Of a DNA stretch of 41,506 bases, positions 15,201 through 36,089 are shown in pieces (positions within the stretch are counted from its first letter, which is position 1; each line of letters opens with the position of its first letter). The DNA is taken from contig BRYA01000143.1 in the NCBI GenBank assembly GCA_030267965.1, positions 16,744 through 58,249 on the forward strand, written 5' to 3'. Made by a program: the position numbers and the translations under genes. The stretch is from Triparma columacea. Lineage: Eukaryota > Sar > Bolidophyceae > Parmales > Triparmaceae. The notes under the pieces are model-generated. The model saw only the letters and a list, made by a program, of their open reading frames with translations. It made no database searches and was not told the origin of the DNA.

Positions 15201-18200
15201 GACCTGGTCGGCGACGATACCACCCCTGACTAACACTGGCCTCCTCGTTCTCCCCTCGGCCCTCCACCCCAAGCTCCCGAGGATGTCCTCACTGACCTCC
15301 TCCTCCCAGTAGGGAACTTTAGTAGCCTCCTGGGATAGCATCCACTTGAGACTCCTGAGCTGCTCAGGACGGAGCGGAAACCTCTTGAAATTAGGAGGCT
15401 GTGCGGCGGCAGAGTCCTTTTTGTTGGAGGTGAGCTGAAGTTTGGGCAGCGCAGGTGGCTTTGAGAATGTCTCGTGCTCGCAAATCCTCCAGGAGAAGTC
15501 CCACGCCTTCTCCACACCATCGACGGCGCTCAGCGCAACCAGGGGGGCGCTGTCCTTGGGCAGGAGGGCCTTTGCCCTCTGACTTAGGCTGAAACCGTTG
15601 CAACCGAGCTGCATTAGCCCGACTTTCCCCTCCTTCTTGAGCTGGACCTTGAAGGGGCGGGGGCGCTGTTTCAGGGCCTGCTCGTAAGCCCCAGCCTCCT
15701 GGACATCTTCCTGGGGCTTGTAAGAGTGCTTCCCCCCCTGGCTAACGACCTTCCAGGCGACACCGGGAACCTTGGGGGCACACTTCAGGCAGTCGAACCC
15801 GTAGGGCTGGGAAACATCTGTGGAGAACTTGTTCCATGACTGGATGGCATCGGGGACATCCAGCCTCTTGGTGAAGAAGGCGAGCTGGTCAAAAACGGAC
15901 TTACTTTTCTGCAGGTTGATCTCAGTCCACTTCCCTTGGTTCTTCTCGGCGTCACACTTCCTCCAAAGCTTATTTTCGGCCATAACCTCGGTCAAAGGGA
16001 TTTTGACGCTAACGATCTCAGGAATCTTCTCCCAGGCCTTGGGCTTCATGTCAATGTTGATGTGAGCATTGGGGACCCTGACCGTAGTCTTATCTCCGTC
16101 ATCGACAACCTCGAGCTTGGCAGCGGTTGCCTTCCAGAAGCCGGGAACGGTGCATGAGACGGTGTGAGGTGCCTTGTCCTTCTCCGTCTTGATGGTGGGC
16201 CTCCACTTGGTGTCGATGAAGGCAACAGCACCTCTGTCCTCGCCGTACGCTAACCTCCTCTTGTTGTCCGAGAAAATGAAGCCATCCTTATCAGGGGTGG
16301 TACACCTCCCGCTCTCTAGGAAGAAGTACATGAGGTCTTTGTCTCCCCCCCTCCTCTTATGAAGGGAGCCACAGGCGGTTCCGCACTTGGGAAGGAGATC
16401 GTAGATGCCGGTGATGTCGTCAGTTAGCACGGCCGCACTGGCCTCGTCGACCTTAATGTTGATGGAGGAGTAGCGCTTGCTAGTCGCGAGCTCTCCCTGA
16501 AGGCCGATCCTTGCCTCCCAGGACTCGATGAGTTCTCCTTTGCCCTCGACTGTGATGTCGATGGTGGTCTCACCGGGAAGACAAAGCTCCCAGATACCTT
16601 CCAGGAGGCTCGAGGCGTCACCCTTGAGGCGCATGCGAGCTACGGGGCGCTCGAGAGCCGTGCGGAGCTTTCCAATGGTGGCAGGAGGGTCAATCTTGAG
16701 GAGCCAAATGGGCTTCCTCTCACTGAGGTACAACTCAAGCGTGGCACCAGGAGCACCGTATGAGACAATCCAAACCTCCCCACGGACGAGCTTCCTGAAG
16801 GTGAACTCGGTAAAGGCTGAGGCAGAAGGGTTCAAGGTGGACCTGAAGGTCTTGGTCCACTCCTTCCAAAGTTTCTCCTCAACTACCTTAGGTTTCATAT
16901 CATCGGCGACAGTGAGACCAGCGACCTTCACGCGCATGGGAATGGCCTTCATGAGCTCTGCGTGGAAGATTGTGGGAACGAGCCTCTCAGATACCATCTT
17001 CTTGTAGCTGTGCTCCTCGAACTTGCGAGGGGGGAGGGCGCACTCTATCGATGCAGAATTTCCGCAGTCCTCGCAGACGAGAATGTCCGGGTGCACCAGA
17101 TCCCTACCCTCCGAGGTGCATCTGCGGCAGCTCATGTCAGCTCTCTTGAGAATCTCCTTGACAGGTTTTGTCTCAAGGGGGGAGAGGCAAAGGCGCGAGG
17201 TGTTATAGTCTCCGAGTCCGTCGGTCACCTTCACCTGTCCGTCCTCGGGATCAAGCGCACGGGGCACGAGCGCGCCGACATGTCCACCCTTCACGTCTCC
17301 GGTGTAAGTCGGTTCGCCCTCAGGCTTGAGGGCAGTTTGCGAGACAATCATTGCGGCGAGCATGCAGGCCCCGACGACGGTGGTAGACATGGCGTTTCCA
17401 GCCAAGTCCTTGAGGTTATCCTCGGTCTCCCTGGTCAGGAGGAGATCGTCAGCAGGGATTCCCTGCAGCAAGAGCAACTCCTCTCCGACGAGGGGCCCGC
17501 CCCTGTTGCTGACGTACGGGACACCCGTCGGAGTCAAGCACTGGCACAGTCCGAGCTTCCCCATGGTGTCCCTGTCCACATTCTGGCTCAAGTTCCAGAC
17601 CATAGTCTTGTAGGTGGCGTCAACCCCCCCCTTGGCGAGGCGAAGAGTGTTGATGTCCATGAGGTCGTGGATCCTGTGAACTTGGGCGTTGGCCCAATCG
17701 TTCCAGCCGTACGACGGCAGGGTGGTGTTGCCGCTTTCGCTCCATCCAGTTAAGGGGCGTTTGTCGCCGAGCTCCTCGTCGGAGCGAGCGAAGAGGTGAC
17801 GGGCTTCACAGCGCGCCCAGTCGACGCGCCCGGTGCGTTCACCGGCATCCCCCCTGCCCGCGGCGAGACGCTCCCTCCCCTTGAGAACCCGGGGATCGTC
17901 GGAAGGGAACATGAATCCGTCGAGTGCGGCAGAGGCGTTGCGCTTGTAGGAGTCAAGCATGCTTTTCCATTCGGTGACGGCTGAACGTCCCACCCCGCGC
18001 TTCTTCTTCACAGCGAAGAGGTACCCACGTGATCTGGTCTGGGGGATATAGTACTTCTTAGTGTCGACCCTGGAGAAGGTGGCGTGATAGCCCATCTCCT
18101 CCTCAAAGATAGAGACCTTTTTCTCCCAGGGAGCGCCGGAGACATTCTCGAGGATGACGATCGGGGGCTCGTTCTTCTTGATCCAGTCAAGCATGCCGCG

Positions 18201-20385
18201 GAAGGTCTGCCCGGACTCTCCGGAACCATGAATCGTCTTCTTCTCGTTGTTCAGGTTGGAGTAGTCGACGCAGGAAGTACCTGCGATGAGCATGTCAACA
18301 CCCCCAGGGACGTCGACGAGGGAGCCGAAGGCAGTGATGGCCTGCTTCCTACCGAGCTCGCGAATGTCGCGAAAGAGGATGGGGGGCTGGAAGTTGCGCT
18401 GGATGTAGGCCTGCTTGAATGGCTCAATCTCGCAGGAGAAGAGGTGCTCAATTTGGAGCTTGGCTCCGTACTGGTCCTCGGCAGCCCTGCTCATCATGTC
18501 CAGCGCAAGGACGGGAGACTCCGTTCCTGAGCACATAGTGGCGATGCGCAGGGGGCGGTCCAGGCGCTTGATAACGTCGGCGAATTCGGGGGCCTTGGAC
18601 ATCATGTCATCAAACATTTCTTGGGGGTTGGACAGAATGGGGAGGCCGTCGCCATCGGTGTAGGCCCCCTTGAGCATTGCGTTGCGGTTGCTTGTGCCGG
18701 CCGCCCTGGTGGGCCTGGGGCCCGACGATGACTTGGGTGCCGAGCGCTTCTTCGGTGTGGGTGTAGTAGCCTTGGCCATTTGTTTCTGCGCGCTCTTGCC
18801 CATCATCATCGCGAAGGGGTTAATCTTCGTCGCAGTAGCAGTAGGAGCAGAGGGTTTGGGCTTGGAAGCAGCTGGCTTGGGGGGAGCATCGACTTCCATG
18901 GGAGTCGCTTCGTCGACGCCCTTGGGAGAGCTGTGAAGAGGGAGATACAAAATTAGTTAGATGCGCTTACTGCGTGAAGCCCCAGAACATCCATTCTCAC
19001 CTCTTCTCAGCGCTGCTAGTCTTCTTCTTCTTGGTGATGACCTCTTTCGCCTTCTTCGCGGCCTTCTTCTTGGGCTTGACAAAGTCATCGTCGGAATCCT
19101 CAGACTCACTCGCAATGAAAGATGCCATCTCCTCCTCGGCAGAAATCTTGGAGCGCTTGGAAGGCTGCCTAGTCTCTTCCTCCTCGTCCTCCTCCTCCTC
19201 CTCCTCAGACGACTCATCAAAGTTTGCCTCGGCTTCCTCATCATCTGAAGAGTCGAAGACGTCCTCTTCGTCACTGGAATCCGAAGGTGCTACCTCCTTG
19301 GCAGGCACAAACTCCTTCTCACCATCCTGCGAGAAACGAAGCGACGACCGAAGGGGGTTAGATAGATAAGAGCTCTGCCTACAGCACTATGGCCGCAATC
19401 ACCGCGATCGTCGCTTCGCTCCTTCAGGTCCATCTCGCATCATCTCACCTCTTCCTCACCGGACTCCTCCTCCTCCTCCTCCTCCTCCTCCTCCTCCTCC
19501 ATATCGGCAACATCATCCTCCCCCTTCAGGGCACAGACCATCTCCCTCACCTCTTCCTCGGGAAGCTGAGCGCTAGAGCCGTCGGCGAAGAGGATGGTGT
19601 AGAGCTTGGTCGCAGCGTCAAATTCCCTGACACTCCCACTCATCCCAGCGCTCTCGATGCTAGTACCACCGACGAAAAGAGGCCCGGCCTTTTTCTGATA
19701 CTTCTTCTTTTGGGCCTCCTTGTGCGCCCAGAAGGCGTCATCTGAGTCATCAGTATCATGGCCATCGCCCTTTCCCTCTTGCTGATTCTCCTTGTCCTCA
19801 GACTCCCCCTCCTCCTTCTCCTTTGGCGTCATAGAGACAGCCCTCTTGACGGCGAGAGCTGGATTCTTGTTGGGAGTTTCCTTGTCCTTTCCCTTGTCCT
19901 TCATCTTCTTGGCTGCAAGAGCCTTGAGCTTGTCCTTCTTGGACAAGTCCTTCTTGTTCATCATCTCATCAAAGATAAAGAAGCAAAAGGTTGAGTCAGG
20001 ATTATCTTCATCGAAGTCATCCTCCAACCTCGTACCTGAGAGTGCGTGGCGGGGATCGGAAAAGGGTTAACATGAATGTAGCTTGTCGGGGGGGAAACGG
20101 CAAGGAGCAATAAATACGCATGGGTCTTGAATTTCAGACGATACCAGCCGTAAATGGGACAATTATAGCAAGCTATCAACAGAACTACCAACAAAAGTCA
20201 GCCGTACCCCACAATTGACAGAGAAAACTTGTCAGTGGAAATTTGCCGCCGACCGAACCCCGCTTCAGATCCCATAACTTACTTAGAACCTTCTCAACCG
20301 CTTCAGCACCCAGTGCTGTGACATACTTGGTGTAGTCAATGTCGTAGCAGTCCTTAAGTAGGACCGTCACGGAATCCTCGTCCAT
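12281..20385 (-). CDS. DNMT5: DNMT5: DNA cytosine methyltransferase fused to RING and SNF2-family ATPase (five exons)
   Basis: Exons in transcription order: 20385-20283, 20035-19449, 19326-19001, 18930-13741, 13622-12281. All four junctions agree in phase with GT-AG ends, giving 2515 residues. Residues 1-340 are acidic, with a Tudor-like strand set at about 157-200 (VREFDAATKLYTILFADG) and a poly-Glu run. The methyltransferase follows: motif I MCSGTESP (~470), TSCVDYSNLN with the probable catalytic Cys at ~559 (a divergent motif IV in place of PCQ), and ILENV (~600). A Cys cluster (CRRC...CEDC) is at ~940-980. The SNF2 part has VADQVGYGKT (~1580), DEFHYLS (~1882), SGTPP, a RING-like Cys/His cluster (~2280-2310) and the C-terminal lobe with QAIGRVRRFGQ. 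DNMT5 is known as an ATP-dependent maintenance CG methyltransferase acting in the nucleus. Confidence 0.92.
13623..13740 (-). other. DNMT5 intron 4 with long G-runs
   Basis: A 118-bp intron (GTGCGT...CCCAG). The coding strand has successive G-runs of about 7, 10, 10 and 12, which is potential G-quadruplex sequence in pre-mRNA and DNA; the + strand shows the matching C-runs at 13686-13722. The length is not a multiple of three and retention would introduce a shift of frame. Confidence 0.75.
19469..19502. repeat. CTC trinucleotide run encoding poly-Glu in DNMT5
   Basis: About eleven CTC units on the + strand read as consecutive Glu codons in exon 2 of DNMT5, in the acidic N-terminal region. 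A similar, shorter acidic run is encoded at about 19180-19205. Confidence 0.8.
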
Positions 20386-21851: not shown

Positions 21852-24794
21852 TTACCCGTGTCTCAGCACGCTCAACCTCGGGTCAGCGACCAGCTTATTG
21901 TCCATGTCCTTGTACTTCTTGAGCGCACTTTCCTCGTGCTGGACCAACCTCTGTTCCAAGATTTGGATTCTGAACATAGCTTCCGAGCACTCCTTCTCGA
22001 ACTGCTCTTCCGCGTCAGGGTCGTTGTCCCTCTGATTCCTCTGAAAGGCGGCCTGGTACTTGGCGAGCTCCTTGTTTTCTTCGTTGAGCCTGTTCTGGAT
22101 GATGTTGGCCCTCTCCAAAAGCCTGTCCTTGAGAGCCTTGAGGCAATTCTCTTTGACCTTCATGGCGTCCTCCCTCGTGAGGTCCTTCGGGTTTATGTTC
22201 ATCAGGAATGGCGTGAGGTAGTCTAGCTGCCTCTTGTCACCCTGCTCCTGCTCCTCCAGAATCTCTTGGACCTTCCTCTCCTCATCTCTCCTTGACGAGG
22301 CAGTCTCAAATACAGGCTGATCTATAATAATTTCCTGCTCCTCGTGCTTCCTCGTGGTGAGGAGATCCGCGGTTTCATTCTGAGCTCTCCGGGCCTCGCT
22401 CAGGCACTCCTTCTCCGCATCTCTCACAACCTCCAGCTGGTCCCCAACATCTTCAGCGCTCCTCTCCTTGTCGTGATTGATTGTATTTCTTGTGATACAG
22501 CTCTTGGCGTAATGGTATTGGGTCCTGACCTTGTTTTCCCTCACGTAAAAGGTCCTCTTGGCGACGTCTTCAGAGGCGTCCTTTTCGTCGTTCCTCTCGT
22601 ACTTCTCAGTCATCTTCAGCACGACTAGGTCAGGGCTGTGGGCTCCTCCTGGAAGAACGAAAGTTGAATTTCCGCTTTCGAGACTCTCCTTGACGGCGAT
22701 GCTCCTATACGTCAGTTTGTCCCCCCTCCCCTCGAACTTCTCCACAATCTTCTTACCCACATCCTCCTCCCTACAGAGCAGACCATCAAGCCTGGCGTTG
22801 ACATAAAAGTACATTTCCCTTCGCTTTCCCGCCCATTCGACGAGGTACTTGAGGCTGCTTGGCCTCCCGGGATCGAAACTCTCGTGAACCATCCTCTCCA
22901 GGGGTTTCCTGATCCTCTTCACTAGCTTATCACGCCTGTTGATAAAGGTCTCCACGCTCTCCTTCACTACGGTGCGAGCGACGTCCTTGAAGAGTGTGAA
23001 CCTGGAAACCATGCCTTGGTCGTGGAAGCTCTCGGCGAAGAGCTCCAACTTTGCCTTCTTGTAGAGGACCACCTTCTGACCGTGCGGTGGGTAGCGAACG
23101 TTGTACTTGCTTCTGTCAATCTTGAGCTTGTTGACCCAGCTCTCGGGAATGTCGAGAATATCGTCAACCTCCTCGACCTCCTCCCCCTTCTCTTCCTCCT
23201 CCTCGTTGGATTCCTTCTCCTCATCCACGATGGGGTCGTTGAGCATGTCCATCATGCTTCTCTCACCCTGTTCCTTCTCTACGAGGGCAATGGGCCCACT
23301 GTCGATGAAAACGAACTCCCAAAGGTCGTTATTCCCAAAATCGAAAGAATGACCAACGAGGTCCTTGTCAGTCTGCATGTTGACCCAGTAGTTCTTGGCG
23401 TTCCAGACGGCCTCGATGCCCTGGTAGGGAGACTCGGACACGGGGTAGATGCGGGCAGTGGACGGCTCAACAAAGAGCATCTCAGGCACGCCCCTCTTGC
23501 CGCCCCTAACGAGAACCCAGCAGTGCACCCTCTTGCCATAGAGGGGGTCTGAGGACGCGGCCTCGTTCTCCTCGACCTGCTTCTCATCTTCGTCGTCACT
23601 ATCCCACCTGATGGGTTGGGGGGTGAAGGCTTTGGAAATTGGGGCACCCCCGACTCCAGGATCGTCCTTGGAGTCGGCTTCTGCTGCACTCATCAAGAAC
23701 TTGGACTCGATAGCGCCATGGGTTTTCAGCTTGTACTCGCCACTTGGGGCGTCGAGCAGATCGTCCTTCTTCTCTTCAGAGGGAGGGGCCTCCTCGTCGG
23801 CATCGAGCGCGTCGTCGTTGTCGGAGCTCTTCGTCTCCGCAATCTCGTCATCACCAACATCCTGAGGGTTCTGCGAAGGGAAGGGGTACGGGGGGATTGG
23901 TGGGTGTGGTTTGAGGTGGCGATCAAATTATCGTCGTCTCTGGCCTATCGCCTATCGCCTATCGCCTATCGCCTATCGCCTATCGCCTATCGCCTATCGC
24001 CTATCGCCATCGTCATCGCCATCGCCATCGCCTTAGCCTCTCACCTTCTCGCCCTCATCCTTGGCTCCAGCCTCGTCACTAACATCAGTAACCAACGGAC
24101 AGACAGTTTGACTCTGGTCACACTCGCAAATGTACTTCGGAGCGTAGCCATGCACGACGTACGCATCGTACCCCGCACCTAGGAGAAACGAGGCGAGGAG
24201 AGTGGCGAAGTCAAATGAGTCCCCGACACCCCAATCCAACACTTGGGTTGAAGAGGGAAGCGTCGAAGGTGGCTCAACAGCGTTTTCAAGGGGCTCGTAG
24301 TCAAGGAAGTGGGCAACGAACTCAGCACATTTGTTGAGGTCGTAAAGCTCCCTGAACTGGAGCTGTGTCGGACGAATCGTGGTGCAAACAAACTTCTCAA
24401 CCTTGAACTCATTCTTGGCCGTCAAATAGAGTTCCTTGCGGTCTGGGAACAGTCTGACGAAATTTGAACGGAAGTTCTGCACGTATTCAAGGCAAAGGTT
24501 CTCCTTGTGGGTGTTTGAGATATAGCTACCGGGGTGTGGGGGGGTTGGGGGGTGGGGGTATGGTGAGGAGCTGGGGAAGGAGGAGGGTCGAAGGAGGAAA
24601 AACAAAAGGGAAAGACCGACACGTACAACGACCCCCCCCTCCCCCCCCCTTCCAAAACAAGGCCATTAAAAATGCACTCACCTGTCATCAGGAGACCGAG
24701 CCCCCCCATAAACTGCATTTTTCTCAGCATCCTTTGACCTTTTCACCTTAGTCGACCGGAGTCCGTCGATTGAAACCAACTTCGTAGCGTCCAT
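21852..24794 (-). CDS. DRC7: DRC7 (CCDC135/lobo), nexin-dynein regulatory complex subunit (three exons)
   Basis: Exons 24794-24682, 24525-24045 and 23870-21852 join in phase (GACAG|GTGAGT; GAGAAG|GTGAGA) to 870 residues, close to the animal protein (about 870). Exon 2 holds the transglutaminase-like region (LDWGVGDSFDFATLL..GAGYDAYVVHGYAP). Exon 3 has the conserved HCWVLVRGGKRGVPEMLFVE and YQGIEAVWNAKNYWVNMQ, and then a long charged coiled-coil C-terminus (ERANIIQNRLNEENKELAKY) ending VLRHG. DRC7 belongs to the linker between outer-doublet microtubules that controls ciliary beating, so the organism must at some stage build a motile flagellum. At the intron 2 acceptor two AGs nine bases apart (23870, 23861) would both keep the frame. 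Confidence 0.9.
23944..24006. repeat. Nine tandem copies of a 7-bp unit in DRC7 intron 2
   Basis: The unit CCTATCG is repeated nine times without interruption, then decays into CCATCG/TCATCG hexamers to about 24032. It lies wholly in the 174-bp intron 23871-24044 and makes up over half of it together with the hexamers. Confidence 0.95.
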
Positions 24795-25307: not shown

Positions 25308-28298
25308 ATGGACATTCAAAAGCTAGGAACCGAGCGCAACGCCCAATTATTGACGATGTCAGGAAGATTTCCATCAGGGAAAATGATCGGCCTGCATGAG
25401 ATGTACAAGGACGGTTGGACCGAAGAGGAAATCCAAAATGAGTTAAGAAAGCAGAGTGGCCATAGGCGGAGTGACCCAATAGGGGCCGCGGATTATTTGA
25501 GGAATAAGAAAGAAGAAACCAAGGAGGAAAATCTCTTGTTGGCACGCAAGGGAAAAAGTGAATCAAACTTGGTCGCAAAGAAGAGAGAAAACGAGGCGGC
25601 TGAGCGGTCCAGGCAAGAAGAACATGAAAAGATATGGAAAGATAAGACTATAGGGCGTCTTAAGTCTGGCGGACTGCACGAGGCCTATGCGGACCAACTG
25701 TCAGACGTGGAGGTCAAGGGGAACATGACCTTCCTCCCAAGGGGTGGCATTTTGGTTAAGACCAACACCCCGGACGACATAGACATTCAATTCGGGATCC
25801 CCCCTGAGACAATAAAGGACTCGATGATACTGGGTGTATCGGTCCCCAAGTACTTTGTGGTATCTCACGAAATGTTCGACAGGGTGGGTGGAACATCCAT
25901 GGCCGAGTTTGAGTTCCCCGCGTATTTCAACTTTTTTGTTTTGAAAAGGAAGGTCACGATCATATGCCGGGAGGGCCTCTCGGAGAGTATCAAGGCCATC
26001 TTCAAGGAGACTCTCATCGGTCCTGACAAGGAAGATTACATGTTTGACAAGGACTTTCCTCCTGGCACCGACCCTAAATTGTTCCCGAATTTTTGGGGCG
26101 AGGGCTTGTGCCTCGATCCCGCGCGAAAGAATCTGAAGGGCGAGGACCTGCTCGAGATCAGAGAGTTTGACGCCGCTGGGCAGGCCACGGTGGGGACGGG
26201 AGATTCAGAGGTAAAAATCAGGTTCCTTGCAAATAAGCAGGAGTACAGGGTGTACAAGTTCGACAAGAAGGGCAAGAGGGAACAGATCGCTACGGTTGCC
26301 GAGGACATCCGGCGGTACAAAGAGGACAAACTGGGGAATGTCAAGAGGTCGAAGCTCGAGTACCAGCCTCTCACCACACCTGAGTTTGGTGTCACTGTCC
26401 TGGGCGCAAGCCACGGCTTCGATCCCGCGGGATCGACGACTGGCTTCGTCATTTGGGTAAACGGGAAGGGAATGGTCGTGGATCCCCCCCCCGGAAGCTC
26501 AGACGTGCTCAAAAAGCTATCCATCCCAGACCGCGCCATCCACGGAATTATCCTAACCCACTGCCACGCGGACCACGACGCCGGCACCTTCCAGCGGATC
26601 CTAACCCTGAAGAATGTCAAACTCTACACCACCACTACCATATTTAACTCTTTCATAAGGAAATACAGTGCCGTGACTGGGCTGGACCGGCAATTCCTCT
26701 GCGGCCTTTTCACTTTCATGCCCTGCTTGATAGGCGTGCCGGTGCCGTTCCACGGTGCCCATTTTAAGCTCTTCTACAGTATACACACCATCCCTTGCAT
26801 CGGCTTCGAGTGTTCGTACGGGGAGACCAGCATGATTTATTCAGCTGACACCAACAGTGACCCGAGCCTTCCCACAAAGATGTTCGAGGAAGGGGTGATA
26901 AAAGAGGGAAGAAGAGACGCCCTTTTAAACAACGCTTTGAAGGGCAAGCACACGCTGATCTTCCACGAGGCCGGCGTTCCACCGATTCACACGCCCATGG
27001 AGCTTCTGGCGAACCAGCCTGACAGCGTGAAGGAAAGGTTGTACTTGGTTCACGTCAGCGAGAACAAGGTGCCGTCAGATGTAGGGCTTAGGGTCGCGAC
27101 GGAGTGGTCGACGATGGTCCTTCAGCAGTACTTGGATTTAGAAATGAAGGAGAGGATGAACATCAAACACACACTCTCCGCGACGGAACTATTTCAACAC
27201 GTCGAGGATGAGGAGTACGAGAAGTTTATCTTTAACAGCACGGAAAAGATAATGGTCCCTAGAGACACGGTTCTGTTTGACAGGGGGGAAGTGATGGAGC
27301 ACATGTATTATGTTTTGGCAGGGAGCGTTCTCGCCATCACGGACTCAAAAGTTTCGCAAGGCCATAGATTTCACGCCGGGCACCTAATTGGGCAAGAGTT
27401 TATCGTGGACGAGGGCAACGTTGCAGGCTACAAGGCCAAGAGCGAGACAGCGGTGATTCTCTACAAGATAAAAATTGAGGCAGCGAAGTGCGTCGTTCAC
27501 AAAAGGGAGGCCCTCAATTTGTTGAAAAACTTGGCCGATTTGATGAAGAGCAGGACATGGGACGCCTTCGCGTGCAACTTGCTGTTCAGGGAGTTCACCA
27601 TTAGGGAGAAAGTGGACCTCTTCAACATATTTTCTGAAGAGATCACCATCGAACCGGAGGGCCGCATTGATTGCCAGCAGAGAGGCTGCCTGGTCGTGGA
27701 CGGGATAGTTCACGTGCTGATGGATAGCACCGTGGATTCACTAGATGAAATGACGAATGAGGAAATAAGGGAAGAAGCTTACACGGACACGAAGGAATCA
27801 TCAGGTGGAGGGAAAGAGGGGGTTAGAAAAAAAGGAGAAGCAACTGGTGTCGTACCTGGGCAGACGGGCCGAGAAAGGTCGAACAAGAGAGAAAACCTTA
27901 GCCCCGCTGACCGATCCCGGAAGCTAATCGAGTTGGAAAGGAACGTCAGGCTATCGAAGGTGGACCTCCCCGGCTTCATGAGCGGTACGATTGAGCTGCT
28001 CGCGCAGAGGAGCGAGGCCAGCATAAACCTCAACAGCGAGTCCAAGAAAACAACTTTCCGGGGCAACCACATGAGGTCGGCGTACGTGGACGAGGTCGGG
28101 GAGACCGGGACGATGATACTTGACATCAACAGCCTCATACTTAGAGACCCGAGCTTGATGCAGGTGGAGGCCATCAGCAACACGAGGGTGAGGATGCTGG
28201 ACAGGAAGGCGGCTATCAACTTCATGAAACATAGCCCGGGGATTTTGGTGAAGCTACTGGATAGCTTCATGTCGACTGATTCTAAGATTGTGTGCTAA
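25308..28298 (+). CDS. Metallo-beta-lactamase protein with two cyclic-nucleotide-binding-like domains (candidate cNMP phosphodiesterase)
   Basis: A single-exon 996-residue protein; ATG 25308 is the first Met. Residues 1-380 have no family I recognise, except a helical GLHEMYKDGWTEEEIQNEL start. The metallo-beta-lactamase fold follows: VTVLGASHGFDPAGSTTGF, then the metal motif ILTHCHADHDAG (H418, H420, D422, H423), an IHTIPCIGFE strand, SADT and FHEAG. A cNMP-binding-like fold is at ~637-730 (VLFDRGEVMEHMYYVLAGSV, then GQEF), and a second one from ~765 (INFMKHSPGIL at its end) is split by a low-complexity insert at ~810-890. Neither keeps the FGE...RAA phosphate-binding motif, so nucleotide binding is doubtful. 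The architecture resembles Dictyostelium GbpA/GbpB phosphodiesterases. Substrate not determined. Confidence 0.75.
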   Translation: MDIQKLGTERNAQLLTMSGRFPSGKMIGLHEMYKDGWTEEEIQNELRKQSGHRRSDPIGAADYLRNKKEETKEENLLLARKGKSESNLVAKKRENEAAERSRQEEHEKIWKDKTIGRLKSGGLHEAYADQLSDVEVKGNMTFLPRGGILVKTNTPDDIDIQFGIPPETIKDSMILGVSVPKYFVVSHEMFDRVGGTSMAEFEFPAYFNFFVLKRKVTIICREGLSESIKAIFKETLIGPDKEDYMFDKDFPPGTDPKLFPNFWGEGLCLDPARKNLKGEDLLEIREFDAAGQATVGTGDSEVKIRFLANKQEYRVYKFDKKGKREQIATVAEDIRRYKEDKLGNVKRSKLEYQPLTTPEFGVTVLGASHGFDPAGSTTGFVIWVNGKGMVVDPPPGSSDVLKKLSIPDRAIHGIILTHCHADHDAGTFQRILTLKNVKLYTTTTIFNSFIRKYSAVTGLDRQFLCGLFTFMPCLIGVPVPFHGAHFKLFYSIHTIPCIGFECSYGETSMIYSADTNSDPSLPTKMFEEGVIKEGRRDALLNNALKGKHTLIFHEAGVPPIHTPMELLANQPDSVKERLYLVHVSENKVPSDVGLRVATEWSTMVLQQYLDLEMKERMNIKHTLSATELFQHVEDEEYEKFIFNSTEKIMVPRDTVLFDRGEVMEHMYYVLAGSVLAITDSKVSQGHRFHAGHLIGQEFIVDEGNVAGYKAKSETAVILYKIKIEAAKCVVHKREALNLLKNLADLMKSRTWDAFACNLLFREFTIREKVDLFNIFSEEITIEPEGRIDCQQRGCLVVDGIVHVLMDSTVDSLDEMTNEEIREEAYTDTKESSGGGKEGVRKKGEATGVVPGQTGRERSNKRENLSPADRSRKLIELERNVRLSKVDLPGFMSGTIELLAQRSEASINLNSESKKTTFRGNHMRSAYVDEVGETGTMILDINSLILRDPSLMQVEAISNTRVRMLDRKAAINFMKHSPGILVKLLDSFMSTDSKIVC

Positions 28299-29515: not shown

Positions 29516-31642
29516 CTAATCCAGAAACTTAACATACTCGATTCTCACGCCTTCAACAAAGGCAGCCCCAACGATAGCCTCCCCAAGCAGCGGTACCTTA
29601 GTAAGCCTCTCCTCCTCAACCTCAAACCCAGCCTCTCTGGCACTCCTCACAGCCTCCTTCACGTTCTTCACAGTAATCGCAAGGGAGTTCAACAGTTCCC
29701 CCCCCTCCCTCTTCGTCTCTGGCTCAGTCCACTTCAGCAGCGTGATTGAAAAAACGTCGTTCGGTAGTTGGCACATCCTGACCCCGTCGATATGGGTTTC
29801 ACTCTCACTGAGGCCGAACGCAGGGAGGAGGTTCTTCTGGTGTTTATCACGGCCTACTTCATAGACAACTTTAGAGAACCCCAACTTCGCGTAGGAAGAC
29901 TTTGCGGTCTCAAAGTCGCTGGCTACGTTTATCGACAAGTGGAACATCATGGGATACTGCGCACCATACCATAGCCTTGTAATGTCGACAATGGGTCCAA
30001 GTGGTAGGTGGAAAACAATCAGGTAAACGACGAATCCATCAGGGTCTTTATATGCGGCGATCTGCTCACTCTTGCCGGCGAGGGGTGCATAAGGCTCAAG
30101 CCCAGCTGCTTTCAAGCGCCCGACTTGAACATCGAAGTCTGCAACGTAAATACAAAGACGCTGCATTCCGGCGGACCAACTTTCAGGACGCTTTAGTGGT
30201 GAACCTGTAGATGAGAGGAGCAGTAAAGGCTGCCACTTTTTGTGCGCCCCGCCTTTCAACATTGCTTGGGAGGAAGTCGGGTCACCGACGAGCGAGAACC
30301 CGAATTTCTGGTAGAATGCGATGGACTGAGAAAGGCTGCTAACCTTGATCGTTATATGGCTCACGACTCCCTCTGGAGGGGTGCCATGTTCGAGTGCGAG
30401 TGGTTCCTTCGCTGCTCCGAATGACATGGCGTAAAGGATGGAATCCCTCGTCCGATCGCTAAGCTTACTGAGGGGTTTAAACACCAGCCAGGAAGCCGTG
30501 CCCGTCGTGATGCGCGTGGGGGGTGATCGAAGCGTTAGAGCTGACAAGAGAGCCGATACCGTGAGTTCAGGAGACTGCGCGATGTCAGAAATTCCACTTT
30601 TCATAGCTTGCTTCACTTTCTCAGCCCACCCGTCGCCGTAGTTTGCACGGCGATCACTTTCGGCAGTTTCAAAAGAACGGTGCCAAGAGTCCGCGAATGC
30701 CATGGCGAGCGGAGTCCTCATGGTTGCCGGTTGTATTACAACCACATCGACTCCCCAAGGCAACATTTCGCATCGTAAAACGTCCGAGTAGGACTCCAGG
30801 GCATGCTTGGACGAGCAGTAAGCCGCGTTTGTCGGGAGGTTGATGAAGCCGTCGACTGATGTGACGTTTACCACACGCCCTTTGGCACGCTTGAGCGAGG
30901 GGAGGAGGGCATAGACAAGCTTCACTGGAGCAAAGAAATTGAGCTTCATCGTCGCCTCGTAAGTTGGAGGCTTAGCCCAATCAACGTTACCGGGCAACGC
31001 GACGCCTGCGTTATTCACCAGGCCGAAAAGACCCCTGACACCAATTCTTTGTTTTGTGAAAGCAACAACGTCAGAGATCCCCTCATCATCCGTCAGGTCC
31101 GCAACCACGGCGTAGACGTTCTCAATCTTGTCGTATTTTTTTGCACCATCCGTAGTATAACATGCCGCAACGACCTCAAAACCTTGGTCAGTGCAGGCTG
31201 CAACCAACCCGGAACCAAAGCCTGAGTCACAACCAGTGATAAGGACTACCCGGGCACCGAGGTCAGTGACAGGACAAATAGTTGGCCTTTTTCGAAAGTA
31301 GTAGAGTGTTAGTAGGACTATTGATGTGGCTAGAACAACAGAAATGGTAGAAAAGGTTAGCTCGGCTTGTGCTACCGAATCGAGAGTCAGGTATTTGAAT
31401 GGCGACTTCATCAACAAAGAAGAGGACTCGGTGGGTGAATTTGGGTTCATGGAACGTAGTCCTAGTGCATATAAAACATTTTCGAATCTCCCCATGGGTT
31501 GAAATTCTTCTCCAAAGTTAAGATACAGCTTGGAGTCACTCAAGTCTCCTCCTCTCCTCCTCAAGCACCAAAAAAAACTGAAACAAACCAATGAAACCAT
31601 CGCCAGCAGTAATCGAAACGCATTAACATTCCTTATCCTCAT
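29516..31642 (-). CDS. SDR oxidoreductase (retinol/steroid dehydrogenase type) fused to two VOC/glyoxalase domains
   Basis: A 708-residue single frame. Hydrophobic segments at about 10-26 and 97-116 (ISVVLATSIVLLTLYYF) suggest membrane anchoring ahead of the catalytic part, as in microsomal retinol dehydrogenases. The SDR domain has the cofactor motif VLITGCDSGFG (136-143; TGCDSGFG is typical of the SDR9C group), LVNNAGV (210-213), S262 and YCSSK (Y275, K279). It is followed by two vicinal-oxygen-chelate domains: VVSHITIKVSSLSQSIAFYQ with DPDGFVVYLIVF (~435-545), and MFHLSINVASDFETAKSSYA through FLD (~565-708). The combined reaction is unknown. The ATG lies only 7 bp after the stop of the PI3K gene on the same strand, so a downstream Met (50 or 65) might be the real start. 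Confidence 0.75.
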   Translation of the reverse strand: MRIRNVNAFRLLLAMVSLVCFSFFWCLRRRGGDLSDSKLYLNFGEEFQPMGRFENVLYALGLRSMNPNSPTESSSLLMKSPFKYLTLDSVAQAELTFSTISVVLATSIVLLTLYYFRKRPTICPVTDLGARVVLITGCDSGFGSGLVAACTDQGFEVVAACYTTDGAKKYDKIENVYAVVADLTDDEGISDVVAFTKQRIGVRGLFGLVNNAGVALPGNVDWAKPPTYEATMKLNFFAPVKLVYALLPSLKRAKGRVVNVTSVDGFINLPTNAAYCSSKHALESYSDVLRCEMLPWGVDVVVIQPATMRTPLAMAFADSWHRSFETAESDRRANYGDGWAEKVKQAMKSGISDIAQSPELTVSALLSALTLRSPPTRITTGTASWLVFKPLSKLSDRTRDSILYAMSFGAAKEPLALEHGTPPEGVVSHITIKVSSLSQSIAFYQKFGFSLVGDPTSSQAMLKGGAHKKWQPLLLLSSTGSPLKRPESWSAGMQRLCIYVADFDVQVGRLKAAGLEPYAPLAGKSEQIAAYKDPDGFVVYLIVFHLPLGPIVDITRLWYGAQYPMMFHLSINVASDFETAKSSYAKLGFSKVVYEVGRDKHQKNLLPAFGLSESETHIDGVRMCQLPNDVFSITLLKWTEPETKREGGELLNSLAITVKNVKEAVRSAREAGFEVEEERLTKVPLLGEAIVGAAFVEGVRIEYVKFLD

Positions 31643-31649
31643 CTCACGC

Positions 31650-34600
31650 TCACCCTTTATCGTGCTTGATTATGTGCAATAAATGCATCACCCTTGTTGT
31701 TTGACACTTTAAGCTCTCATGGATGAGTTTCTCAAACCTCCCCGCAGCCTCCTCGTCACTCTCCTGAACCTTCATGGTGTCCACGAGCCACAGCAGATCT
31801 TGGCTGCTCTCGAGCTCCGGAATCTGGCAGCCGATCATCAAGTTAAAAAGAACGAGGAAGGTGTTGCTATGCCTCCTCAGAATGTTGAAAGCCTGCGCGC
31901 AGCTGTCCTCAAACTTCCTGTACCTCTCCCCGACTCTCCGCCCCCCCAGCACCTGGGCCATGTGCTGCGTGAAGACGAACGGGGCCCTCTCTCTCTTGTA
32001 CCCGAACTTGCTCTTGAAGTTTCCGAGGAAATGCCCAAAGTCAATGTGGAAGAACTTCCCGTCCTTGGTTACCATAACGTTGTCGTTGTGCCTGTCACCG
32101 ATCCCAAGCACGTAGGTTGCAACCGCATATCCGGCGCAGCTCTTGGTGAAGTTCTCGAGCGCGTTGTACATCTTGGTCCCCTGCTGGATGGGGTTGACGA
32201 ACTCGATCTTTCTCTCCTCTGTCGGATCGTGCATCGAGTTCGGCTCCCTCTCGTTCACTTCGAAGCCTTTTGAGGGTTGGTCCACAGTCGGTACAGTCGG
32301 TGCCGAAAAGTCTACGAGCATCTCCCGGGCCGGTTTCGTTTCCTGGAGCAAATTGTCTGTCCTTTTCCCTCCATTGTGCCTCTCCAACCACCTCTCAATA
32401 CTCCCCCTCCCCTTCATGGTCTCCTTCGTTATCTCCAGCAACCTACCCCGCTGTCCCGATAGGCCGCTGCACGTGATCCCCGCAATAGTGGCGCTGTCTT
32501 GAACAACCTCTAACATGCCCTGTTCGAACCCGGTTGCGCTGCACCTGTACGTACTCATCTTCAAATCCAATCCCTCGTCCTTCCACAGCCGATCCATTAC
32601 CCTCATTATCTGCAAGGTCAGCTGATCTTGCCTCAGATCGTCTCCTGACTTGAAGAGGACCACGAAATTGGGCTCCCACGGGTCTTCCCTAACGAAAGTC
32701 AACCAGAGGGGCATCTTCTTGGAAGACATGACCCTGCACTTGCTTACGTCTATCCCCTTGCATGTCTTGTAGGGGTCGAGGGGGAGCTGGAACGATTTGG
32801 GGAAGACGATCTTCTTTAATTCATCCTTGAGGACATTCCCCCTATTGGTATTGTCCGCCTTCTTTACGATTTGACAAACCTCCTCGAGGCGGTTAACAAT
32901 GAACATCTGATGCCCAAGGCTCACCCTGTGTTCCCCGCAGTTCCTCAAGTACAACTCAAGAAGCACCCTGCAATGATGCTTCGTGTCAGCGACGTGCCTC
33001 TCGCTCTGGAGCATCCAAAAGAGAGTGTGCCCGCACACGAAAGGGTTGAGGAGCGACCTCCTGAGGAGGAACCTGCAAAGGGCCGTGTCGTAGTGAGGCT
33101 CGAATTTGAGCACCTGCACGAGCTGAAGCATCACCTCGGACAGCTCCTCATCTGTCATGACGTTGAGCATCCTCACGGCGTACTCCCTAACCTTGGGCGA
33201 CGCGTACCTCACGTCGAGTAACTGAAGAGCGTCCAGGGGATTCTCGGACTCAGCCCACTCCTCCATCATCGACTCCGCTTCCACAACCTGGTTGCGGTCG
33301 CCGTAGTCAACAGCAAGGAGAAGTGTAGGGAGGGCAGAAGGGTAATCCTTCAACTCCCTTCGAGACATCCACAACAACTTTTTCTCGTCTTCAGTGAGAC
33401 CCTCGAGATGAACTGACAGAATAATGTCCTTGACGGCGCTTGGAAGGAACTTAGAATGGGAGAGAACATCTGCGTCAGATTGCATTGACGACCTTTCCCC
33501 CCTCCTGCTGCTTCCAACTTTGTCTCTCTGGGAAGTCTTTTTTGTCACGGAAGACCGCCGCTTCTTCTTGGTATCACTGTAACCGGGCTGCATCAGCTGC
33601 TCCGTATCTATGTGCTTGAACTTTTCAACTAGCGGCACCGTCCCATTGTTTCTTTTGGACTTGACAACGCTGGCGCAGCCAGAGACAAAGTCCAGCGCCA
33701 TGTTCCCGCTTGATTCGGCTCCGACCGACTCGAACTCTCTCATGTGCTCGGTGAGCTCCGTATGCACAAATATCAGACTTTCCGACTGGAATGAGTGTAT
33801 AGTCTTATCCTCCGAGAAGACGGGGACGATAAAGTGTCCAATAATGCTTTGATTCTTTGCGTTGTGGCAAGTGACAATAATCTTGGAGGCCAACGGCAAA
33901 TTCCTCACGGTAATACCAAACGACGCGACGTCCCCGCCAAAGTCTGCGAAGCCGTCTCCCCCCTCAGAGTGGAACTGACTCTTGAGGGCGATCTCATTAG
34001 CATCAGAGCCCCGCCTCCCGTCAGATGCAGTGGTGCGGGCCAAAACTGGCGCCGTTGGGGACTGCGCGAATAGCGAATAGCAACAGTTAATGATAGCGAA
34101 GAGCAGCGCGTCGGAGAATTAATTTATAGCCCCCCCTCCATTAACAATAAGTCCCTCTTACCTGGTACTCAGTGGCGATAGGCTCGGTTCCATGCCAGAT
34201 ATTTATCCTGAGGAAGACCTCCCTCGCAACATGTGAGGGGAAGCGCGAGAGTGTTTCGAGGCGGAGGGCAAAAAACTCGTTGCACAGGTCGATGTCCCTC
34301 ACGTTCCCTATGCCCTCGATGATGTTGAGGTGCTCGTTCTTATTCCTGAAGACCTCCCCAACGTGGTTTGCCACGCTATTCAGAATGTCAATGTCTAAGG
34401 CTTCGAACACGTTCTGGGGGCGGTGGACAACAATGACGGCCCGAATATCGTTCAGGGAGCGTTGGGTTTGACTCTCGCTCTCGGAAAAGTACACGGGGGA
34501 AGCGATGAAGTTCACACCATGGTTATCAGTTTCCTTGAGGGGGAAAAACATTACATCTTCAGCGTTTTCCAGGCCTTCGGAGTTGGTCACTGGGACCCCG

Positions 34601-36089
34601 GAGGAGGCACAGTTGAGTGCAACCTGTTGGAGAGTCTGACTTCCGTCTCCCATGAGGTCAACGCAAGAAAGGAGGGAGAGGGGAGAGGAGGGTCTGCCTC
34701 CGTCATTATCTTCTTCGTCGGGGGTATTTCTCACGAGGTAGAGCGCGACGCTGCTCGCGAAGCTGAGCTGCAAGCTTGCCTGGATGTTGGCTATAATGCC
34801 CTTGATGTCGCTCTCGGGGTTGACGTTCTCGAGGATCTCGAGGACGACCTTCCCCTTCATACCCGTTGGGTTCTGGGAAGAGGAAGTCCTCCTCTTTGTG
34901 GCAGAATCAATTATCGGCCCGGCGGAGCGGACCTCGGTGAGTGCTTCGGTGTAAAGTCTGATGTGATTCTCGAGCTGCTGCACGGAGGTCGCCTTGAGAT
35001 CGTGCTCGTAGGCTTGAATTCTGTCTCCGAGGAGGTCCTGAACGCCAGAAAGGGCCTCGTTGAATGTCTCCGCGTCGAGCATCTGGCAGAGCACGCTGCC
35101 CTGAGCCGTGCAGGAGGCCGCCCTGGGCTCATCTGTGAGGAGGGCCCTCTCCCCAAAGTAGTCTCCGGGTCCGAGCGTCATGAGAGTTTTAGAGGTGAAG
35201 GGAAGGGGCTGACCGGGAGCTGAGGGCTACGAAGTGGGTTGCGTTAGGGGATAGGATGAGGTGCTTTCTGAGCTCTTTTACTTGTTGTTCGTTCTCACCT
35301 CAGAGGAAAACTCCTTGACTGTTACCACGACCTCTCCCGTCTCAATGACATAAAAGGTGTTTCCAGGGTCGCCCTGGTTTATGATGACATCGCCGTCCAT
35401 GAATCTCCTGGACTCGAGCGAGGCGGAAAGCTTGGAGAGCTGGGCCTCCGAGAGGGACTGAAGGATGGGGATGGACTTGAGGAAGGAGAAACCTCCGACT
35501 CGGAGCCCACCAGCTGAGATCCCACCGGAGTTGCTAAGGGGGGGGGGGAGGGGAGTCAGACAAATGAATCGCTCCGTGTGTATGGGGGGGTTTGGGGTTG
35601 CTCTCACCTCCCTGAAAGCTCAAGTCTCTGGAGCTTGTCCCGAAGTTCCTCTATCTCCGACAGGAGATTGTGGCACTTTTTCTCAAGATCCTAAGGGGGG
35701 GGTGAGGGGGAGGAGGGTTGTGTTAGGGTCGTGTAGAGCGCGTGGGATGTAGGGTTTCTCCCCTTCCATACCTGTCTCTTCCGCTTCTCCTGTCCCAGCA
35801 TCTTTCTCAATTTTTCATTCTCAAATGCTGATTCTGTCTTTCGCTGCGGCTTCGGTGCGTCAAGATCCCTAGATATCCTACTCTCAGATCTTTTCACGAG
35901 CTCCCTCCTACCCTTGGGGACAGTAAAACCTGTATCGAAATGAACCTTGTTTCCTGTCGAGTTGGAGTTCTGGGGTAATGACGAGGATGACTGATCATTG
36001 GAGGTTACCAAGGTCGATTTACCATTAAAAATGACCGATCGATTCCGGGGTGCCGTAGCTGGTGGAGGAAGGGGGGGGGGAAGGTCCAT
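31650..36089 (-). CDS. Class I-like PI 3-kinase with N-terminal coiled coil, cyclic-nucleotide-binding and GAF domains (five exons)
   Basis: Exons in transcription order: 36089-35772, 35690-35608, 35533-35299, 35208-34162, 34061-31650. Every junction has GT-AG ends and matching phase (0, 2, 0, 0), giving 1364 residues. Order: Pro/Ser-rich start; coiled coil ~90-132 (IEELRDKLQRLEL); cNMP-binding domain ~148-265 with an intact phosphate-binding cassette FGERALLTDEPRAAS (230-244); GAF ~333-503; C2 from ~540 (VFLRINIWHGTEPI), itself split by the last intron; helical domain ~765-920; kinase with KMPLWLTF, LFKSGDDLRQDQ (K1032), GIGDRHNDN (1214-1222), HIDFGHFLG and the basic activation loop KSKFGYKRERAPF typical of class I enzymes, which make PIP3 from PI(4,5)P2. 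No Ras-binding domain is evident. The start at 36089 could have further 5' exons. Confidence 0.85.

Follow-up and report, generated by a model that had tools for sequence, protein, structure and literature searches.

A Class I-like PI 3-Kinase of Triparma columacea with a Cyclic-Nucleotide-Binding Domain and a Probable, Divergent GAF Domain

The stretch of Triparma columacea DNA analyzed here (41,506 nucleotides, hereafter the window) carries at 31650..36089, on the minus strand, a gene predicted to encode a class I-like PI 3-kinase (PI3K) that holds a cyclic-nucleotide-binding domain (CNBD) and a divergent GAF domain in the same chain. We refer to this gene and its product as the window copy. 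On balance, we favor the reading that the window copy and its relatives are cyclic-nucleotide-regulated, Ras-independent PI3Ks, in which the window copy would sense its ligand through the CNBD and a paralogue in the same genome would do so through the GAF domain.

Gene Model and Domains of the Window Copy

A sequence-only reading had joined five exons of matching phase into one protein. A splice and phase check bears this out: GT-AG is found at every intron border, the phases of all five exons are compatible, and the spliced frame runs open for 1370 residues to a TGA stop at 31650. The features are as follows.

31650..36089, minus strand: whole gene, 5 exons, 1370 residues, CNBD-GAF-C2-helical-PI3K (splicing and phase check)
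35772..36089, minus strand: exon 1, residues 1-106, N-terminal region with the beginning of a possible coiled coil
35608..35690, minus strand: exon 2, residues 107-134
35299..35533, minus strand: exon 3, first portion of the CNBD
34162..35226, minus strand: exon 4, end of the CNBD, GAF and first C2 strand in an unbroken 355-residue frame
34062..34161, minus strand: intron 4, 100 bp, leading to a stop if retained
31650..34061, minus strand: exon 5, remaining C2, helical domain and kinase
35613..35843, minus strand: possible coiled coil interrupted by intron 1, residues 83-132 (sub-threshold Pfam matches, some to coiled-coil families)
35023..35487, minus strand: CNBD, residues ~150-280, containing intron 3 at 35298-35227 (Pfam PF00027, PDB matches)
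35113..35157, minus strand: FGERALLTDEPRAAS, the phosphate-binding cassette with its Gly, Glu, Arg and Ala in place, residues 236-250
34309..34863, minus strand: divergent GAF, residues ~334-518, NKFDE motif lost (HR..F..DI)
33615..34272, minus strand: PI3K-type C2, residues ~531-716, divided by intron 4 (profile of relatives)
32913..33455, minus strand: helical (PIK) domain, residues ~770-950 (Pfam PF00613, 2.8e-42)
31809..32663, minus strand: lipid kinase domain carrying the GDRHND and DFGH motifs and the class I-type loop GNFKSKFGYKRERAPF (Pfam PF00454, 5.1e-56; p110beta alignment)

Retention of any single one of the four introns would cut the protein off after 132, 134, 218 or 573 residues. 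In exon 5, no Met occurs before its residue 107, which falls within the C2 domain, so a complete PI3K of its own could not start in this exon. Exons 3, 4 and 5 are similar in GC3 (0.72, 0.71 and 0.72). The GC content of the window as a whole is 51.6%.

The helical and class I-like kinase domains named in the earlier reading are both recovered by Pfam, as PI3Ka (PF00613) at residues 776-946 and PI3_PI4_kinase (PF00454) at residues 1034-1318. The catalytic residues are intact, and alignment shows the activation loop GNFKSKFGYKRERAPF to be nearly equal to GNFKSKFGIKRERVPF of p110beta; basic loops of this class I type are linked to PIP2 use. The protein thus combines the C2-helical-kinase core and the basic activation loop of class I enzymes. 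No Ras-binding domain (RBD, PF00794) was detected in it at E ≤ 1, as had been noted from the letters, nor was a p85-binding (adaptor-binding) domain at the same threshold. A C-terminal PX domain and a second C2 domain were likewise missing from the Pfam scan, and the chain ends ~50 residues beyond the kinase match. Class II identity is ruled out by the lack of PX and second C2 in that scan, and Vps34 identity by the class I type of the activation loop.

The CNBD is matched by Pfam cNMP_binding (PF00027) at residues 176-271 (1.1e-16), and its matches in the PDB are mostly cGMP-dependent kinase and PKA regulatory subunit (PKA-R) sites, with Epac as a weaker match. The cassette FGERALLTDEPRAAS, which had been called intact, is indeed complete and aligns to the cassette of a cGMP-dependent kinase; at the level of sequence, the window copy therefore carries a CNBD with the full cassette of PKA/PKG-type receptors. 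The cassette ends in RAAS, and for this reason its sequence is compatible with cAMP and cGMP alike. Ahead of the CNBD, the proposed coiled coil is plausible only: there are sub-threshold Pfam matches, but a crude heptad score was equaled by 33 of 1000 shuffles.

The GAF and C2 domains are more divergent, with 35% and 32% identity to the orthologue P0001 compared with 81% for the CNBD, and the Pfam scan of the window protein gave no GAF, C2 or RBD at E ≤ 1. A C2 profile built from relatives without the window sequence nonetheless scores the window protein at 36.0 bits, while 500 shuffles and the reversal reach at most 4.9, and a profile of the region that includes the window sequence matches the p110alpha/delta C2 in the PDB (1.9e-9). 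The claim that the last intron splits the C2 domain, leaving its first strand on the GAF exon, thus stands for the domain, but the strand itself ('..HG' on exon 4) is only a weak match (i-Evalue 1.5).

The GAF assignment holds in part. Scored from its own letters, the window copy gives 11.0 bits, against 11.1 for the best of 500 shuffles and the reversal; the same domain of P0001 scores 25.6 bits. Profile to profile, the probability was 77.9% or 77.0% depending on the setting (E 2.2e-6 or 2.1e-5, reckoned for a single comparison), and a family profile that includes the window sequence matches CyaB2 and phosphodiesterase (PDE) GAFs (best 2.9e-16). With this profile and orthologue support despite a shuffle-level score of its own, we therefore regard the domain as a divergent GAF, the fold being partly confirmed. 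NKFDE is the motif of PDE-type GAF receptors, and the window copy has HR..F..DI in its place. The suggestion that the window protein has a second, GAF-bound ligand is accordingly poorly supported, since the NKFDE residues are absent and the GAF is barely detectable.

A Second Copy and a Wider Family

The genome assembly searched (37.85 Mb, 789 contigs) contains a second CNBD-GAF-C2-PI3K, on contig C145 (C145_B), with 8 GT-AG exons and 1463 residues. Its GAF match is strong (7.3e-19), the nearest PDB structure being the PDE5 GAF (1.6e-23), and its motif N-T..F..DE keeps most of NKFDE; its CNBD lacks the cassette Arg. The two copies show reciprocal decay, the window copy keeping the cassette without NKFDE and the paralogue most of NKFDE without the cassette Arg, and the idea of a GAF ligand fits the paralogue much better. 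This second gene, anciently diverged from the window copy, is new here. The only RBD in the genome lies on contig C365 (2.0e-11), in a PI3K that is class I-like, as is the window copy, but differs from it in having the RBD; no CNBD match was found on that contig. The genome also has a probable Vps34, 18 cyclase-matching and 14 PDE-matching stretches; PTEN_C2 gave no match in a genome search that was without a working positive control.

Looking for the same domain order in relatives, as the sequence-only reading had proposed, was productive. Among 56 distinct proteins from database searches, seven others rechecked with Pfam have both a CNBD and a PI3K catalytic domain: P0003, P0006, P0007, P0023, P0025, P0049 and P0051, one of them (P0025, Globisporangium splendens) from an oomycete. 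They share the order CNBD-(GAF)-C2-helical-kinase with the window copy, with an additional WW domain in P0006. Pfam shows no GAF in P0007 and P0025; both records are without part of the kinase, and P0025 is marked partial. In P0001, the CNBD, GAF-like and C2 sequence lies in one frame on a JGI contig, apparently predicted without splicing. No clear case of the two halves as separate genes, which had been put forward as evidence against a fusion, was found. The orthologue annotated in Triparma, P0002, is nevertheless without the CNBD; its model begins within the GAF domain and looks like a truncated gene model. The literature searched, which left out a key Phytophthora survey, yielded no earlier description of a PI3K with a CNBD and no functional description of the database proteins.

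The cassette is complete, with its Arg at the aligned place, in 8 of the 10 CNBD-bearing family members; the Arg is absent in C145_B and displaced by an insertion in P0023. These same two have F...DE in the GAF, which is seen in none of the seven cassette-intact members with a GAF (Fisher p 0.028, post hoc and uncorrected for kinship). P0051 is an exception to the split, with an intact cassette and NK..F..D in its GAF.

In the phylogeny, the family (ten rows, P0002 included) is set apart from p110 and the RBD-PI3K with support of 82/87, or 92/94 in a reduced set, so that its placement beside p110 has moderate support. The window copy and C145_B as close sisters are rejected (p-AU 2e-5). An alternative tree, with C145_B, P0006 and P0049 attached to the RBD-PI3K, narrowly escapes rejection (p-AU 0.057); these three group together in the reduced tree only (91/94) and not in the first tree. 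The PI3K CNBDs do not form one clade in a CNBD-only tree, where 5 changes are needed, and a single clade is not rejected (p-AU 0.43).

Proposed Mechanism and Alternatives

In the mechanism we propose, a possible coiled coil, the CNBD and the GAF would replace the N-terminal Ras and p85 input modules of a class I-like PI3K. Binding of cAMP or cGMP to the CNBD would relieve inhibition of the C2-helical-kinase core or bring the core to the membrane, and PtdIns(3,4,5)P3 or PtdIns(3,4)P2 would be made with no need of Ras. The CNBD would be the working sensor of the window copy and its GAF structural; in the C145 paralogue, the roles would be reversed, with the PDE5-like GAF as sensor. That a cyclic nucleotide directly gates PIP3 production, as the earlier reading suggested, can reasonably be inferred.

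The CNBD and GAF could instead be ligand-free scaffolds that dimerize the kinase or anchor it, for example at the flagellum or phagocytic cup, with no cyclic-nucleotide regulation. Some CNBDs, those of KCNH channels and trypanosomatid PKA-R, bind no cyclic nucleotide, and the badly eroded window GAF, the two family CNBDs of ten without the cassette Arg at the aligned place and the possible coiled coil would all suit a scaffold. We nevertheless consider it unlikely: conservation of the window CNBD far exceeds that of the GAF and C2, most of the family keeps the full cassette, and decay that seems to alternate between two sensor types would be needless in a pure scaffold. It is also quite unlikely that the kinase uses PtdIns or PtdIns4P rather than PtdIns(4,5)P2, yielding PI3P or PI(3,4)P2 for trafficking; the lack of an RBD in the window copy and the presence of an RBD-bearing PI3K in the genome would fit such a role, but the loop is almost that of p110beta. 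Gating through the CNBD by another ligand, such as a nucleoside, a different cyclic nucleotide or a metabolite, we judge improbable. CNBD folds with altered ligands exist and RAAS does not reveal ligand choice, but the cassette is canonical, its structural matches are mostly PKG and PKA-R sites, and cyclase and PDE sequences are present in the genome. Finally, the joining on paper of neighboring genes or of wrongly spliced exons, for which only the P0002 model (part of the GAF onward) speaks, is ruled out for practical purposes, as the earlier reading had argued, by exon 4, which by itself joins CNBD, GAF and first C2 strand, by the single frame of P0001, by seven separate homologues (the P0006 accession looks like a transcript) and by the second full copy.

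Relation to Known Systems and Significance

A broad survey of PI3K evolution places the RBD on class I and II catalytic subunits (PMC4617754), and its text is without the terms cyclic nucleotide, cNMP and GAF. The window copy shares its core, basic activation loop and catalytic motifs with p110beta and p110gamma (class IA/IB) and differs in having a CNBD and GAF where the RBD and p85-binding domain, neither of them detected, would be. With cGMP-dependent protein kinase and PKA regulatory subunits, it has in common the FGE..L...PR.A cassette, but those proteins have tandem CNBDs, whereas the window copy has one CNBD and a lipid kinase output. The best solved-structure matches of the family GAFs are those of PDE2/5/6/10 and the CyaB2 cyclase, from which they differ in being linked to PI3K and, in the window copy, in missing the NKFDE residues. 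CNBD and GAF domains in other proteins bind cAMP or cGMP. The proposed way of working may be likened to that of Epac, a CNBD-gated Rap exchange factor in which the cyclic nucleotide lifts the autoinhibition of an effector other than a protein kinase; only the CNBD is matched, and the output enzyme differs.

In animals and Dictyostelium, several intermediate proteins stand between cyclic nucleotides and PI3K. A link within one chain, if true, would convert one second messenger directly into another, and would do so in a class I-like PI3K that has no Ras-binding domain. Two paralogues with reciprocal decay would make the partitioning of sensors open to a clean test, and the family could supply a natural cyclic-nucleotide-controlled PI3K as a research tool. 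More tentatively, cyclic nucleotides might directly switch on PIP3 synthesis, perhaps in many stramenopiles, through an ancient, Ras-free pair of PI3Ks with different sensors (a PKG-like CNBD and a PDE5-like GAF), possibly with cAMP and cGMP each feeding separately into one lipid signal, for example in phagotrophy or flagellar steering.

A single frame joining a CNBD to a class I-like PI3K

The PI3K gene (36089-31650, minus strand) has five exons; all introns are GT-AG and phase-compatible, and scripted splicing yields a single frame of 1370 residues, as the sequence-only reading had proposed. If any single intron is retained, the protein ends after 132, 134, 218 or 573 residues; exon 5 has its first Met within the C2 domain, and GC3 is similar across exons 3-5. 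In Pfam, the cNMP_binding, PI3Ka and PI3_PI4_kinase domains score above cut-off, and no GAF, C2 or Ras-binding domain (RBD) is matched at E<=1, which agrees with the earlier remark that no RBD is visible. Passages of PMC4617754 place an RBD in class I and II PI3K proteins.

The phosphate-binding cassette of the cyclic-nucleotide-binding domain (CNBD), FGERALLTDEPRAAS, retains its Gly, Glu, Arg and Ala, so its description as intact stands. The CNBD finds its top PDB match (7.7e-44) in a large protein with multiple CNBDs that bears the label TGME49_219070; other matches include cGMP-dependent kinases (8e-38) and PKA regulatory subunits (∼1e-27). The kinase domain has an activation loop of GNFKSKFGYKRERAPF, compared with GNFKSKFGIKRERVPF in p110beta, and its catalytic motifs are intact by the same comparison; because of these two features, class I-like substrate use is predicted, and the class I-like assignment holds at the sequence level.

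A divergent GAF and a PI3K-type C2 domain

The GAF domain was assessed with a profile that excluded the window clade and gave 11.0 bits for the window protein, 11.1 for the best shuffle, and 25.6 for its orthologue P0001. In a profile-profile comparison the probability was 77.9% or 77.0%, and E was 2.2e-6 or 2.1e-5, according to the setting. A family profile that includes the window protein matches CyaB2 in the PDB at 2.9e-16, as well as the GAF domains of PDE10, PDE6, PDE5 and PDE2; one metal-dependent phosphohydrolase ranks second. The proposed GAF domain is thus recovered as a divergent one through the family profile and P0001, but not from its own sequence, and we conclude that it is apparently present by descent but eroded. 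P0001, from a JGI contig, has a single frame that contains a CNBD, C2 sequence and a sub-cut-off GAF match (0.0089); its tail goes out of frame like an unspliced prediction. Its identity to the window protein is 81% in the CNBD (123 positions), 35% in the GAF (165) and 32% in the C2 (180). P0002, from Triparma laevis, runs from the GAF onward without a CNBD, its gene model beginning inside the GAF; the kinase half of the window protein is 74% identical to that of T. laevis.

A C2 profile of six family members, the window protein among them, matches PDB structures of the C2 domains of p110alpha and p110delta (1.9e-9). Against a profile from which the window sequence was left out, the window protein scores 36.0 bits versus <=4.9 for 500 shuffles and the reversal. 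The C2 domain itself is therefore upheld; its first strand, placed by the sequence-only reading on the GAF exon (exon 4), ends in HG, or WHG in the window gene, and aligns weakly to PDB C2 domains (i-Evalue 1.5).

Relatives, paralogues and phylogeny

Because each of the three protein searches scored the ∼8000 best candidates, counts are lower bounds; the searches yielded 48, 6 and 4 hits, together 56 distinct proteins. At least seven of the 56 combine a CNBD with a PI3K catalytic domain: P0003, P0006, P0007, P0023, P0025 (the oomycete Globisporangium splendens), P0049 and P0051. For GAF, P0003, P0023 and P0051 score above the Pfam cut-off, P0006 and P0049 have sub-threshold matches, and P0007 and P0025 have none at E<=0.01. 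P0006 has a GECG01 accession, for which a literature search found no paper, and "ORF type:complete" in its EukProt name; it is taken to be a transcript assembly. None of these CNBD-PI3Ks, several of them unnamed, is a diatom-named record; diatom-named CNBD kinases were returned. Separately, P0052 contains hexokinase and CNBD Pfam domains, a possible cyclic-nucleotide-linked hexokinase.

The genome itself has five PI3Ka matches on four contigs.

PI3K-type genes of the Triparma columacea genome, by contig
C142: the window PI3K
C365 (L017): RBD, C2, helical and kinase domains; WW-like sequence by eye
C444: Vps34-like by activation loop, judged by eye
C145 (L020), 1918 to about 7019: CNBD-GAF-C2-PI3K with degenerate cassette and PDE5-like GAF

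The C145 gene has eight exons with GT-AG introns and encodes 1463 aa, with Pfam matches to cNMP (2.6e-9), GAF (7.3e-19), C2 (7.7e-10), PI3Ka (7.2e-56) and kinase (2.9e-58); the closest PDB match to its GAF is PDE5 (1.6e-23). The physical fusion of PI3K and CNBD is confirmed by the single frame, the seven or more other CNBD-PI3Ks and this second copy.

In a 14-row helical-kinase tree, the ten family rows, P0002 included, separate from p110beta, p110gamma and C365 with moderate support (82/87), which becomes 92/94 when three long rows are dropped. The resulting 11-row tree places the window protein with Triparma, P0003 and P0007 (99/99), and C145 with P0006 and P0049 (91/94), the latter a grouping absent from the 14-row tree. 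A tree constrained to unite C145 with the window protein and Triparma is rejected (p-AU 2e-5), making the duplication behind the two copies an old one. Joining C365 with C145, P0006 and P0049 falls just short of rejection (p-AU 0.057), so the fusion may have arisen a second time. A 46-row tree of the CNBD alone has poor resolution; its ten PI3K CNBDs need 5 changes (shuffles: mean 9.1, 0/500 as low as 5), and a single clade is not rejected (p-AU 0.43).

The NKFDE motif has a role in cyclic-nucleotide GAF domains. The window copy pairs its intact cassette with HR..F..DI, the C145 copy a cassette without arginine (FGEGSFTNRQAGSAAA) with N-T..F..DE, and P0023 an interrupted cassette (an insertion, and no arginine at the aligned position) with NK..F..DE; P0051 lies in between, with an intact cassette and NK..F..DM. 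Among nine members with both domains, F...DE occurs in C145 and P0023 and in 0/7 cassette-intact members (Fisher 0.028, post hoc and uncorrected for kinship), a pattern suggestive of reciprocal decay.

Genomic setting and interpretation

The genome contains 130 CNBD matching stretches, a large number for 37.85 Mb, with 18 cyclase and 14 PDE stretches (stretches, not genes), and 57 for chlorophyll-binding proteins. Passages of PMC10328945 report cyclic nucleotide signalling domains as enriched in Parmales genomes versus diatoms and predict phago-mixotrophy for Parmales. Within the window, a short-chain dehydrogenase fused to glyoxalase-like domains (29516-31642) shares the minus strand with the PI3K gene, its first ATG lying 7 bp beyond the stop codon of the latter. 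Another unusual possible CNBD fusion lies within a few kb of the PI3K gene: a 996-aa ORF (25308-28298, plus strand) that matches a metallo-beta-lactamase domain (1.8e-6) and, narrowly below the Pfam cut-off, a CNBD (27.1 versus 27.5 bits). A flagellated stage is suggested because the flagellar protein dynein regulatory complex subunit 7 is encoded at 21852-23693 (minus strand). A 1835-aa ORF (13392-18899, minus strand) has SNF2 and C5 cytosine methylase domains, the pairing known from DNMT5.

No CNBD-PI3K appears among the literature matches listed (the best 20 of 20,299 and 20 of 42 in two queries), or in passages of PMC3019232, PMC3823935, PMC3024228, PMC4617754 and PMC2837644; an earlier Phytophthora mention is possible. 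The PMC2837644 passages give PI3_PI4_kinase and cNMP_binding as each PX-associated, and do not place them in one protein. The CNBD-PI3K fusion is real, present in other lineages, and unusual. A scaffold role for the CNBD and GAF domains is the main rival to cyclic-nucleotide control; direct control of the PI3K by a cyclic nucleotide would be the likeliest reading, and one that we favor with some confidence.
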